Positions 10,331 to 12,874 of a stretch of DNA of 15,051 bases are shown here, piece by piece (the stretch's first letter is position 1; the number at the start of each line of letters is the position of its first letter). The notes beneath the pieces are model-generated. The model was not told the origin of the DNA and made no database searches. It saw only the letters and a list, made by a program, of their open reading frames with translations. The position numbers and the translations under genes are program-made. This DNA is from Pseudomonadota bacterium (GTDB taxonomy: Bacteria > Pseudomonadota > Gammaproteobacteria > Xanthomonadales > Xanthomonadaceae), in assembly GCA_023423675.1 (NCBI GenBank), contig JAFAFD010000419.1, positions 1 to 15,051 of the forward strand, in the 5' to 3' direction.

Positions 10331-10777
10331 TCAGCTGCCGCTGTCCGGATCAGGGCCCTTGGCCGACGCGGTCGGCGTCGATCCGGCGCTCTGCACGACG
10401 ATCTGGTTGCCGACGATGGACACGGAAACGCCCTGCGCCGAGTAGGCGGACGTGACGTCGATCACGGCCTGCTGCGCGTTGGTCGTATCAATCCGCGTCA
10501 CCGCTCCGTAGAGGGTGAAATCCGAGCTGAGGCGATAGTCCAGCGTGCGGCCGGAATCCTTGGCCCAACGGTCAAGCATGCCCTTGAGCGTGCCGTCCAT
10601 GGGCGAGGCCTGGTACACGTAGCTGGAATACAGCGGAATCTCGGTGGGGGCTTCCGCGAAACGGTTGACCGGCTTCCACCGGCCGCCGAAATCGGGTGCG
10701 GGCTTGGTGGCACATCCGGCCACCATCAACGCCGCCGCTGCGGCGATGGACAACTTTGCGATAAACGCCTGATTCAT
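10331..10777 (-). CDS. virB7: VirB7, outer-membrane lipoprotein of Xanthomonas type with extra C-terminal domain
   Basis: This is a 148-residue lipoprotein. I use ATG 10777 because it gives a proper lipoprotein signal: basic and hydrophobic residues 1-21, lipobox MVAGC, and Cys22 as the lipidated residue. The +2 residue is Ala, consistent with outer-membrane sorting. Residues about 24-48 (TKPAPDFGGRWKPVN... and EAPTEIPL) resemble the VirB9-binding segment known from X. citri VirB7. Ordinary VirB7 proteins are about 50 residues; here residues about 55-130 form an additional alpha/beta domain (GTLKGMLDRWAKDSGRTLDYRL, then AVIDVTSAYSAQGVSVSI) like the N0 domain of secretins. That is the hallmark of the bacteria-killing Xanthomonadaceae T4SS. 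The ribosome binding site is weak (GTGAAG). It is first in the virB operon and has a long structured leader. Confidence 0.93.
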   Translation of the reverse strand: MNQAFIAKLSIAAAAALMVAGCATKPAPDFGGRWKPVNRFAEAPTEIPLYSSYVYQASPMDGTLKGMLDRWAKDSGRTLDYRLSSDFTLYGAVTRIDTTNAQQAVIDVTSAYSAQGVSVSIVGNQIVVQSAGSTPTASAKGPDPDSGS

Positions 10778-10799
10778 ACGGGCTTCACTTTGACGTACG

Positions 10800-10833
10800 A
10801 AAAAGCAGTCCCGATGTTGGTCCCCTGGCTGCT
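10800..10833 (-). terminator. Weak attenuator-like stem with U-tract just before virB7
   Basis: On the minus strand AGCAGCC (10833-10827) can pair with GG-A-CTGCT (10811-10804), leaving A10809 bulged, followed by TTTT (five T at 10804-10800). The 15-base loop contains GGGGAC. The stem is short (5+2 pairs), so this is a weak candidate for transcription attenuation or a second CsrA site. It ends 22 bases before the virB7 ATG. Confidence 0.3.
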
Positions 10834-10857
10834 CCGGATTGGCATGACGCCAACCGG
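10834..10857 (-). other. Leader hairpin 2
   Basis: Arms CCGG-A-TTGGC (10834-10843) and GCCAACCGG (10849-10857) give nine pairs with one bulged base and a 5-base loop. It is 2 bases from the next palindrome and lies in the virB7 leader. Confidence 0.5.
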
Positions 10858-10859
10858 AC

Positions 10860-10881
10860 ACGCGTCGGGAACCCGACGCGT
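10860..10881 (-). other. 22-base near-perfect palindrome in the virB7 leader
   Basis: ACGCGTCGGG at 10860-10869 is followed by AA and its exact complement CCCGACGCGT at 10872-10881. It may act as a DNA-level operator or as an RNA stem of about 9 bp with a 4-base loop. No GTAG head and no U-tract are present, so it is neither SMAG-like nor a terminator. Confidence 0.55.
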
Positions 10882-10981
10882 AAGCGCGGCTTCACGACGG
10901 CTCCCCGGCGGCCCGAAGACCGCCAACCAGGTTGCTGAAAACGGTTACACCAACCCGTCCTCTCGCACCCTCACCAACTTC

Positions 10982-10998
10982 GGAACCATCCCTGTTCC
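10982..10998 (-). promoter_or_regulatory. Candidate CsrA/RsmA binding hairpin in the virB7 leader
   Basis: On the minus strand GGAAC (10998-10994) pairs perfectly with GTTCC (10986-10982), closing the 7-base loop AGGGATG. The string ACAGGGATGG overlapping the loop agrees with the in-vitro CsrA consensus ACARGGAUGU at nine of ten bases. A GGA exposed in a hairpin loop is the classic CsrA site. In X. citri CsrA represses the virB operon; its use of this exact hairpin here is inference. Confidence 0.55.
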
Positions 10999-11057
10999 TA
11001 TGGCTGAAACTCCTGGCCACTTCTGAAAGCGAGCTGAACCGAGAGGTCCCTGCGCCG

Positions 11058-11085
11058 TGCATAGACTGGCACAACCACGCGTCAA
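11058..11085 (-). promoter_or_regulatory. Possible sigma-70-type promoter for virB7-virB6
   Basis: On the minus strand TTGACG (11085-11080) and TATGCA (11063-11058) are 16 bases apart. The -35 agrees well with consensus and the -10 poorly. A dyad (11093-11106) abuts the upstream side. Transcription would start near 11050 and give a leader of about 270 bases. Confidence 0.4.
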
Positions 11086-11092
11086 ATCAATG

Positions 11093-11106
11093 TCAGACCA
11101 GTCTGA
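11093..11106. promoter_or_regulatory. Operator-like dyad TCAGAC-CA-GTCTGA
   Basis: This is a perfect 6-bp inverted repeat with a 2-base centre, ending 8 bases upstream of the possible -35 box of the virB promoter. No regulator family can be named from the sequence. Confidence 0.45.
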
Positions 11107-11113
11107 ATTGGAC

Positions 11114-11128
11114 AAACGCATGGCGTTT
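11114..11128. promoter_or_regulatory. Operator-like dyad AAACGC-ATG-GCGTTT
   Basis: This is a perfect 6-bp inverted repeat with a 3-base centre, located between the two other dyads upstream of the virB promoter. Its centre is about 21-22 bp, or two helix turns, from the dyad at 11093-11106. Confidence 0.4.
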
Positions 11129-11140
11129 TCTTGACGCGCT

Positions 11141-11160
11141 TCACAAATTTACATTTGTGA
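11141..11160. promoter_or_regulatory. AT-rich 20-base palindrome TCACAAAT-TTAC-ATTTGTGA
   Basis: This is a perfect 8-bp inverted repeat around TTAC in an AT-rich patch of a GC-rich region, beginning 34 bases beyond the virD4 stop. It looks like an activator or repressor site. Without a following U-tract it is not a convincing virD4 terminator. Confidence 0.5.
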
Positions 11161-11194
11161 GACCGCGTTATTTGCTCCATCGGATGCAGCTTCC

Positions 11195-12874
11195 TCACAG
11201 ATTCAGAACAGGAGCTTCCACTTTTGGCAGTAGACGCGACGTGAAATATTTATCTTTGTAGTAGCGGATCTTGTCGCACTGCACAGGATGCGGGATGCCT
11301 TCGTAGAGGAACACTTCCTTGTCCGGGCCCATCGCTTTCAGCTCCTGCGGCAGCATCAGCGCGCGACGCTCCTCGGTGAAACTGTGGGTCTTTTCACGCG
11401 CGTGGGTGACGTTCTTCTTGCGGATGGTGGTGTAGCCCAGCATGTCCGAATAGTCGTTGGCATCCTGCTGCTCACGCGGCGCGTAGAGGATCTGCAGCGC
11501 GTGGTTGGTGATGATCGTGCGGGAGATCTCCCTGCCATAGGTCGCGTCCAGCTGCGACATGCTCTGGATGATCGGCAGCAGGCGCACGTTGTAGCCGGCC
11601 ATGTAGGACACCGCCGAGGCGATGATGTCGACCTTGCCGATCGAGGTGAATTCGTCCATCAGCAGCAGGCACTGATACTTCAGGTCCGGGTTGGACTTGG
11701 GCAGTTCCTTGGTGTTGAGGTTGATCAGCTGGCTGAAGAACAGGTTGATGATCAGGCGGCTCTCGGCCAGCTTGTTGGGCTGGATGCCGATGTAGATGGT
11801 CATCTTCTTCTTGCGCACGTCGGTGAGCAGGAAGTCGTTGGTACTGGTGGCCTTGTCCAGCACCGGGTTGACCCAGGCGTTCAGCGGTTCCTTGAAGGTA
11901 CCCAGGATCGAGGCGAAGGTCTCATCGGCCTGGGACAGCATGTTGGCGAACGCCGAGCGCGCATTGCTGCTCAGGAACGGCCGTTCGGACAGGCTCTTGA
12001 GGAACTTCTTCAGCTCGGTGCCATCGCCCGAGGACAGGCGGTACACCGCGCCCAGCGTTGGCGTGCCCTGGCCGCCGGGGAAGCCGCTGGCGCGCTCGTC
12101 ATCCCAGTTTTCGAACAGGTAGAGGGTGAAGGCGATGAAGGCGTTGCGGGCCTGGCTGACCCAGAACTTCTGGTCCTCGGCACCATCGGGGTAGAGCATG
12201 GCGCCGATGCTCATCAGGTCCGAGATGCGGAAGGCCGGATCGTCGGAGACGTAACTGAGCGGGTTCCAGCGGTGCGTGCGGCGGTCTTCGGCGAAGGGAT
12301 TGAACAGGAAGATCTCCTGCCCCTGGCTGGCGCGCCAACCACTGGTCAGGTCGAAGTTTTCCTGCTTGATGTCCAGCACCACCAGCGACTCGCCGTACTC
12401 CAGCAGGTTCGGGATGACCACGCCCACGCCCTTGCCCGAGCGGGTCGGCGCGGCGAGGATCACGAACTGCTGGCCGTCAAGGCGCACCAGCTTGCCGCCA
12501 TGACTGCCGACGACGATGCTCTGCGCGGTCTTCTTGTACAGGCCGTGCTTCGCCAGGTCGGCACTGGTGGCAAAGCGTGCATCGCCGTGCAGCGATTTCT
12601 TCTCTTTCTTCAGCAGCCACACCAGGCTGCCCACCAGCACCACCAGCAGCGGCAGGCCGAAGCCCAGGTAGCCGGCCCACCTGATCTTGCCCACGAACGG
12701 GGCGACCTGTGGCTGGCCCAGCGCGCTGTAGTACTGGTAATAGGTATTCCAGGTGAACAGCTTGGTGTCCAGGCCAAGTAGCAACAGCGTCAGATAACCG
12801 GACAACGCGAAACCAAGCAGCAGGGCGACCACCGTAGCGATGGCGATGGTCAGGAACTTATTACTGGGCAACAC
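11195..12874 (-). CDS. virD4: VirD4, T4SS coupling protein (T4CP ATPase)
   Basis: This is a 559-residue type IV coupling protein, the receptor that selects substrates for the T4SS. In the Xanthomonadaceae killing system it binds effectors through their C-terminal XVIPCD domain. Two N-terminal membrane helices lie at about 8-35 and 66-88. Walker A is PTRSGKGVG at 143-151 and Walker B is LLLMDEF at 403-409. The all-alpha substrate-binding domain falls at about 190-330 between them. PIIQSMSQLDATYG at 434-447 is the usual VirD4 segment after Walker B. The start is GTG at 12874, with GGAGG 6 bases upstream. It follows the 85-residue gene by 36 bases and is separated from virB7 by 417 bases, so it may be expressed apart from the virB genes. 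Confidence 0.97.
   Translation of the reverse strand: MLPSNKFLTIAIATVVALLLGFALSGYLTLLLLGLDTKLFTWNTYYQYYSALGQPQVAPFVGKIRWAGYLGFGLPLLVVLVGSLVWLLKKEKKSLHGDARFATSADLAKHGLYKKTAQSIVVGSHGGKLVRLDGQQFVILAAPTRSGKGVGVVIPNLLEYGESLVVLDIKQENFDLTSGWRASQGQEIFLFNPFAEDRRTHRWNPLSYVSDDPAFRISDLMSIGAMLYPDGAEDQKFWVSQARNAFIAFTLYLFENWDDERASGFPGGQGTPTLGAVYRLSSGDGTELKKFLKSLSERPFLSSNARSAFANMLSQADETFASILGTFKEPLNAWVNPVLDKATSTNDFLLTDVRKKKMTIYIGIQPNKLAESRLIINLFFSQLINLNTKELPKSNPDLKYQCLLLMDEFTSIGKVDIIASAVSYMAGYNVRLLPIIQSMSQLDATYGREISRTIITNHALQILYAPREQQDANDYSDMLGYTTIRKKNVTHAREKTHSFTEERRALMLPQELKAMGPDKEVFLYEGIPHPVQCDKIRYYKDKYFTSRLLPKVEAPVLNL

Follow-up and report, generated by a model that had tools for sequence, protein, structure and literature searches.

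A probable CsrA-site hairpin that may compete with a long-range helix in the virB7 leader of the Stenotrophomonas maltophilia complex

Introduction

The closest described system is the virB operon of Xanthomonas citri, orthologous to the one studied here, whose leader is bound and repressed by CsrA (PMC7286519); the initial annotation of this locus had pointed to the repression. In X. citri without csrA, virB message is 8 to 16-fold higher (Cenens and others, PMC7286519). The transcript start was mapped 249 nt before virB7, and the single GGA change that raised a reporter, +141 to GAA, did so 1.7-fold out of a 3-fold effect, leaving open the mode of CsrA action on virB (PMC7286519). Removal of nucleotides 1–72, which hold four GGA motifs, produced no significant reporter change in wild type, the only background for which the reporter section gives this deletion, and CsrA still bound RNA lacking nucleotides 1–73 (PMC7286519). 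Selected CsrA ligands mostly display the consensus RUACARGGAUGU with a six-base loop and with AC pairing GU, and one CsrA dimer bridges two sites 10 to 63 nt apart, a second site not always being needed (review PMC7652899).

The leader analyzed here resembles several known systems in part. Like the X. citri virB 5′UTR (PMC7286519), it belongs to the same operon, occupies the same intergenic place and holds several GGA sites; in contrast to it, the Xanthomonas leaders seen have no perfect stem of the hairpin that we call SL2 and carry a GGA in the virB7 ribosome site. Like the Escherichia coli glgC leader, it combines a GGA hairpin with a second site, an arrangement that in glgC is of high affinity and bridged by one CsrA dimer, but whereas the second glgC site overlaps the Shine-Dalgarno sequence, both GGA loops here lie more than 200 nt upstream (PMC7652899). 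As in E. coli iraD (PMC5574718), candidate CsrA sites lie far upstream and the start region is predicted to be hidden by structure; the coupling of iraD to a short upstream ORF is resembled by Xanthomonas leaders in which a stop overlaps the start codon, whereas the window has only a short leader ORF that is without its ATG and stops before virB7. Finally, the candidate site recalls the E. coli pgaA leader, in which CsrA binding and a competing RNA helix are mutually exclusive (PMC7652899).

Results

The candidate hairpin lies in the leader of an X-type type IV secretion operon. On the minus strand of the stretch of DNA analyzed in full, which we call the window (15,051 nt), lies a locus for type IV secretion of the bacteria-killing X-type, with genes named here from gene order and from relatives of VirB7 (72 loci; the closest named relative found is from S. 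cyclobalanopsidis TPQG1-4, L021, at 97% identity). The hairpin falls within the 417-base gap between the virD4 end (11195) and the virB7 start (10777):

10331–10777, minus strand: virB7, first gene of the virB operon (open reading frame, start codon ATG at 10777)
10982–10998, minus strand: SL2 hairpin (stem GGAAC/GTTCC, loop AGGGATG, GGA at 10991–10989; from sequence and conservation)

When 91 genomes of the genus were searched at the DNA level, 30 matched the leader and 61 gave no match. Our S. maltophilia complex sample comprises 29 distinct leaders, the window's among them, and our outgroup sample 12 other Stenotrophomonas leaders; relatives are not independent, with L043/L092 and L039/L042 forming near pairs among the outgroups. 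All four related genomes searched contain csrA. No leader similar to the window's was found in the plasmid collection, and Rfam gave no match in the window at gathering score, the one weak match in 10700–11200 reaching 15 bits where 50 are needed. Among the published matches listed for CsrA with Stenotrophomonas or virB leaders, no title concerns this hairpin or the helix described below, and by term counts the main text of the S. maltophilia T4SS paper (PMC6759196) mentions neither CsrA, RsmA nor UTR.

SL2 combines two features that 2000 shuffled leaders did not bring together. The initial annotation had described a CsrA-like hairpin here, and its description holds in each particular: GGAACAGGGATGGTTCC, at 10998 to 10982 of the minus strand, forms a perfect 5-bp stem around the seven-base loop AGGGATG, ACAGGGATGG agrees with ACARGGATGT at 9 of 10 positions, and base 10982 lies 205 bases from the virB7 ATG (10777), which places the loop GGA at −214. 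This GGA sits in the loop of a short hairpin, as in CsrA/RsmA target sites; SL2 differs from selected CsrA ligands in its seven-base loop and in having the A of AC opposite G (PMC7652899). Among 2000 dinucleotide shuffles of the 420-base virD4–virB7 stretch, any 5-bp hairpin with GGA in a loop of 5–8 bases appeared in 259 and a consensus match of at least 9 in 31, while none had both at the same site. The whole window holds 18 comparable GGA hairpins over both strands (6 and 12) and 13 sites with a consensus match of at least 8, SL2 being the sole such site inside such a hairpin. Folded alone, SL2 reaches −5.6 kcal/mol (z −2.1), with 10 of 200 shuffles equally stable. Counting against SL2, the 50-base block that holds it together with the neighboring hairpin SL1 folds no better than its shuffles (z −0.3).

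SL2 is a real and non-random element whose conservation holds within a single species complex. All 29 complex leaders retain the loop GGATG, and SL2 is fully paired in 28 of them (99.3% of cells paired), the remaining leader (L035) having a broken closing pair, which counts against SL2. One pair changes on both sides, being A-U in 21 leaders and G-C in 8 (the window, L021, L002, L003, L004, L095, L096 and L098), probably through a single event between two clades, which limits its weight. The long-range helix P1 (below) would not by itself require the SL2 5′ arm to follow, so this two-sided change counts for SL2. Beyond the complex, an alignment that joins 4 complex leaders to the 12 other Stenotrophomonas leaders shows no change in the GGA, and the stem has all 5 pairs in only 1 of those 12 (L037) and 2–4 pairs in the other 11. 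For the expectation that stem and GGA loop are kept across Stenotrophomonas the outcome is mixed: both are kept within the complex and the GGA outside it, but the full stem is missing in 11 of the 12 leaders outside it. The primary sequence of a 45-base block around the hairpin is almost invariant across the 29 leaders. Taken together, GGA triplets are invariant in 4 of 9 cases against 54 of 263 for all triplets, a weak excess that also weighs against SL2 and gives no clear sign of greater conservation of GGA. The GGA adjoining the virB7 start is present in 12/12 other Stenotrophomonas leaders and 21/21 examined Xanthomonas leaders (L091 left out) and missing from 29/29 complex leaders, so an upstream site may have replaced it in the complex.

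A second invariant GGA lies in a neighboring hairpin:

11000–11020, minus strand: SL1 (stem GTGGC/GCCAT, 11-base loop CAGGAGTTTCA, invariant GGA at 11013–11011; from 29 leaders and the RNAalifold consensus)

The five SL1 pairs are unchanged in 29/29 leaders and so provide no covariation support, and the element can also be read as a Shine-Dalgarno-like AGGAG. Its GGA lies 22 nt upstream of that of SL2 (11013 vs. 10991), within the 10 to 63 nt range of a CsrA dimer (PMC7652899).

The consensus fold of the leaders replaces SL2 with a long-range helix. The RNAalifold consensus for the 29 leaders contains 70 pairs, of which 12 show two-sided change; it keeps SL1, drops SL2 and pairs 10987–10973 with 10821–10807 in a 14-bp helix, P1. 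P1, which competes with SL2, is a larger result than the hairpin itself; this longer fold is probably the older of the two and is predicted to be the stronger. The elements of this fold are:

10973–10987, minus strand: P1 5′ strand, containing the entire SL2 3′ arm (RNAalifold, pair counts, strand-swap test)
10807–10821, minus strand: P1 3′ strand, ending just before the virB7 start-codon hairpin (RNAalifold, pair counts, strand-swap test)
10824–10931, minus strand: inner leader, with P2 (10931–10924 with 10831–10824), the P3 hairpin (10923–10908) and the P4 hairpin (10858–10833) (two-sided changes)
10767–10806, minus strand: start-codon hairpin (GCUU.UUCGUACG / CGUAUGAA..AGGC), pairing the virB7 start codon (RNAalifold consensus fold)

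Together, P1, P2, P3, P4 and the start-codon hairpin have 99.4% of cells paired and six pairs with two-sided change (1 in P2, 3 in P3 and 2 in P4), a number reached by 0/500 shuffles. The complete window leader is also more stable than expected (z −2.9; 0/200 shuffles as stable), with a start-codon hairpin probability of 0.96; this hairpin is of low probability in L004 and L034 and is nearly invariant, so it draws no support from covariation. The predicted fold bridges the 205-base distance, with P1 setting the site beside the virB7 start. The virB7 start codon itself is predicted to be buried in its hairpin. The ribosome site that serves it, AAAGTGAAG, is a weak one that contains no GGA. In Xanthomonas, a possible second CsrA site is the ribosome-site GGAG at −12, which the consensus fold of 15 leaders places in a conserved hairpin with a four-base loop.

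Comparison among species supports P1 in 7 of 12 other Stenotrophomonas species. Within the complex, P1 shows one-sided changes only and does not beat its own shuffles. Among the 12 other Stenotrophomonas leaders, a strand-swap test of real against exchanged P1 strands found 7 of 50,000 permutations as low as the real pairing (0/50,000 with the window added, 0/50,000 for a pruned set of 10 leaders); this test was after the fact, P1 having been noticed by eye in RNAalifold output and relatives, and used an anchor pattern chosen separately for each species. Taken one by one, 7 of the 12 species had no more than 6 of 38 swapped pairs as good as the real pair, with letters that differ between species, while the other five (L036, L040, L044, L045 and L046) had 12 to 27 of 38. 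The duplex starts within one base after the GGA in 10/12. In 15 Xanthomonas leaders the same test fails (3705 of 20,000 permutations), although there too the consensus fold has TGGATGGT paired to conserved sequence near −45.

SL2 and P1 share bases 10986–10982 and are mutually exclusive. In the complete window leader P1 has a probability of 0.93–0.99 and SL2 of 0.00–0.03, so that SL2 is predicted not to be the dominant fold of the finished RNA; among 19 complete leaders L033 alone does not favor P1 over SL2, with P1 weak in L022 and L035 at one of the two 3′ ends examined. Unfinished window transcripts give SL2 0.85–0.88 for ends at −180 to −156, then 0.16 to 0.90 until −48, at most 0.06 from −36 and 0.00 from −24. 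Averaged over twelve ends from −180 to −48, SL2 probability is 0.58 in the window, and it is at least 0.5 in 5 of 20 leaders (the window, L021, L002, L023 and L034); another 7 leaders lie between 0.3 and 0.5, and the remaining 8 stay below 0.3 (0.06–0.08 in L028, L026 and L035). From −24 on it averages at most 0.10 in 19/20, L033 being the exception. In these models an SL2/P1 exchange is plausible in the window and close kin, and early SL2 preference is not general among leaders. In the isolated 48-base block, SL2 exceeds 0.5 only in the window and L032 among 19 leaders. For 16 of the 19, the window not among them, that block folds best as an alternative local fold B (GCCAG/TTGGT with GCCAT/ATGGT), which was rejected as a candidate and is absent from the RNAalifold consensus. 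Forcing SL2 in the complete leader costs 0.4–4.5 kcal/mol over 8 leaders (2.2 in the window). The predicted cost of opening the window's virB7 start hardly changes with it (from 10.4 to 10.9 kcal/mol), and an effect on translation is therefore not predicted.

A predicted promoter would place the transcript start upstream of the hairpin:

11058–11085, minus strand: predicted promoter, TTGACG (11085–11080), 16 bases, TATGCA (11063–11058) (pattern in relatives; start near 11052)

The initial annotation had named a start downstream of 10982 as evidence against its reading; the predicted start near 11052 lies on the other side and fits the position mapped in X. citri (−249; PMC7286519). A pattern search of the 29 leaders places TTGACG between −306 and −320 in 25, an earlier TTGACG having been matched first in L032, L033, L105 and L121, and the −10 box of those 25 begins TATG in 12 and TGTG or TGTT in 13. 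A consensus promoter scan of the window returned no promoters. Two dyads occur farther upstream. The dyad TCAGAC-TG-GTCTGA at 11093–11106, directly upstream of the predicted −35 box, is possibly a transcription-factor operator; relatives share TCAG..CTGA in 29/29 leaders, with six-base arms fully complementary in 20 and one further mismatched pair in the other 9, some changed on both sides (TCAGG..CCTGA). The second, TCACAAATGTAAATTTGTGA at 11141–11160, lies farther upstream of the promoter, and several relatives have TTCAC..GTGAA-like dyads there.

Leader reading frames differ widely among relatives. In Xanthomonas, GGAGT followed after about seven bases by ATG opens an ORF of 61–66 codons that ends in TGA; 11 of the 15 leaders of this type have it overlapping the virB7 GTG. 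This ORF, located at about −182 to −197, has a good ribosome site and ends GTGA over the virB7 start in L047, L052, L053, L055–L060, L064 and L066, a layout typical of translational coupling that is absent in L061, L069, L070 and L090. Eight Lysobacter loci (L063, L065, L067, L068, L072, L076, L079 and L085) have GGGGAGTTC-ATGGAC at the matching place, about −250, opening an ORF of 49–51 codons that starts MDRTI. At the position of the leader ATG the window has ATA, L021 and L002 have ATT and the other complex leaders ATG, and the ATG within the window's loop opens 14 codons only, with a stop at −170. Within the complex the leader frame ends in four ways: by reading through into virB7, by a stop on the virB7 start, or by a stop at −168 or at −195. 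In many S. maltophilia leaders (L023, L026, L028, L031 and others) no stop separates virB7 from the upstream ATG, which shares the virB7 frame; a start there would put 74–76 more residues ahead of the lipoprotein signal. Xanthomonas leader ORF pN/pS is 0.51 and 0.89 (two sets of five), and the X. citri authors judged an ORF in this gap to be unconserved and to have no canonical ribosome site (PMC7286519). A conserved leader protein in the complex was considered and rejected, given frames that differ between relatives and these pN/pS values.

Discussion

We read SL2 as a probable CsrA site that may compete with P1; its use by CsrA is plausible. In support of the CsrA-target interpretation are csrA in relatives, the X. 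citri precedent (PMC7286519) and conservation in the complex; against it stand the dispensable X. citri counterpart, the stem missing outside the complex and the dominance of P1. The X. citri GGA at +70 (CTATGGATGG) is the counterpart of the SL2 GGA by position and letters, and that at +57 is the TGGAGT motif, both placed on the near relative X. phaseoli L066. The dispensable X. citri region 1–72, which by register holds this counterpart, is the strongest evidence against a needed role for SL2 (PMC7286519). Two things limit this argument: in the Xanthomonas leaders seen the SL2 stem is absent, and they have a GGA in the virB7 ribosome site that the complex lacks.

One explanation, which we put first only tentatively, is a leader switch in which SL2 forms early and P1 late, and CsrA holding SL2 lowers virB output. 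Transcription of the virD4–virB7 gap would yield a structured leader, about 275 nt long, with two GGA sites near its 5′ end, SL1 and SL2, 22 nt apart, a spacing that one CsrA dimer could bridge. During leader synthesis SL2 could form and offer the better site, and once the bases just before virB7 emerge P1 would take over its 3′ arm. CsrA on SL1 and SL2 would delay or prevent P1, lowering virB output; mRNA decay or premature termination would be a likelier route to this than the opening or closing of the virB7 start. The elements, their conservation, the one two-sided SL2 change, the strand-swap support for P1 and the exclusion of SL2 by P1 are observed; we infer the transcription start, CsrA binding to SL2, the exchange and the direction of its effect. 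In a more far-reaching form, a CsrA-gated co-transcriptional RNA switch would operate in the complex, with a clade-specific SL2 folding first and the older P1 replacing it unless CsrA captures it, and SL2 would have arisen as the ribosome-site GGA was lost, control moving from the virB7 ribosome site to an upstream folding decision. That full scheme we consider unlikely.

The conserved block could instead be kept as a strand of P1, with P1 functional and SL2 a by-product; GGAUG would then be a single-stranded site, for CsrA or otherwise, adjoining P1, and CsrA, if it acts, would bind the GGA in the P1 fold. This is a possible though doubtful account. It fits a consensus that holds P1 and not SL2, real strand pairs that beat swapped ones in the 12 other Stenotrophomonas leaders, a duplex that begins beside the GGA in 10 of these, the high P1 probability in the window, and an SL2 that is incomplete in 11 of 12 outgroups and in most relatives unfavored even in unfinished leaders. 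It sits less easily with P1 changes in the complex that are one-sided and do not beat shuffles, with the 5 of 12 outgroups in which at least 12 of 38 swapped pairs are as good and with the failure of the test in 15 Xanthomonas leaders, and it leaves the invariance of the SL2 5′ arm and its matched change unexplained.

Two further accounts assign the block to something other than a competing fold. If it were the start of a leader ORF (AGGAG, spacer, ATG), CsrA could block its translation and virB7 would fall by translational coupling as in E. coli iraD. The Xanthomonas ORF that overlaps the virB7 GTG and the matching Lysobacter motif at 8 loci are consistent with such a role, as is an X. citri 1–72 deletion that removes the ORF start and is reported in wild type (PMC7286519). 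In the window, however, no start codon with a ribosome site occurs at the candidate CsrA site and the ORF does not end at the virB7 start; given ATA for ATG and no long frame after it, we do not adopt an iraD-type ORF here. With ATT in L021 and L002, only 14 codons from the in-loop ATG, four frame ends within the complex, the Xanthomonas pN/pS values and the X. citri authors' own verdict also against it, a leader-ORF role is rather improbable. More improbable still, to the point of being hard to credit, is that the block is kept for a non-RNA reason, such as a DNA-binding protein, with the hairpin arising by chance. Its nearly invariant primary sequence and the conserved dyads upstream of the promoter would suit such a role, but hairpin and consensus coincide in none of the 2000 shuffles, the leader fold is matched by none of 200, and several helices change on both sides.

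What is new here is that the SL2 3′ arm doubles as a strand of P1, whereas CsrA control of the virB leader was known, published for X. citri only. A conserved leader fold that brings an upstream GGA to the virB7 start, together with a competing hairpin, provides specific base changes to examine. If true, the leader-switch explanation would illustrate a way for a CsrA site to shift its place in a leader during evolution while control of the same operon persists.
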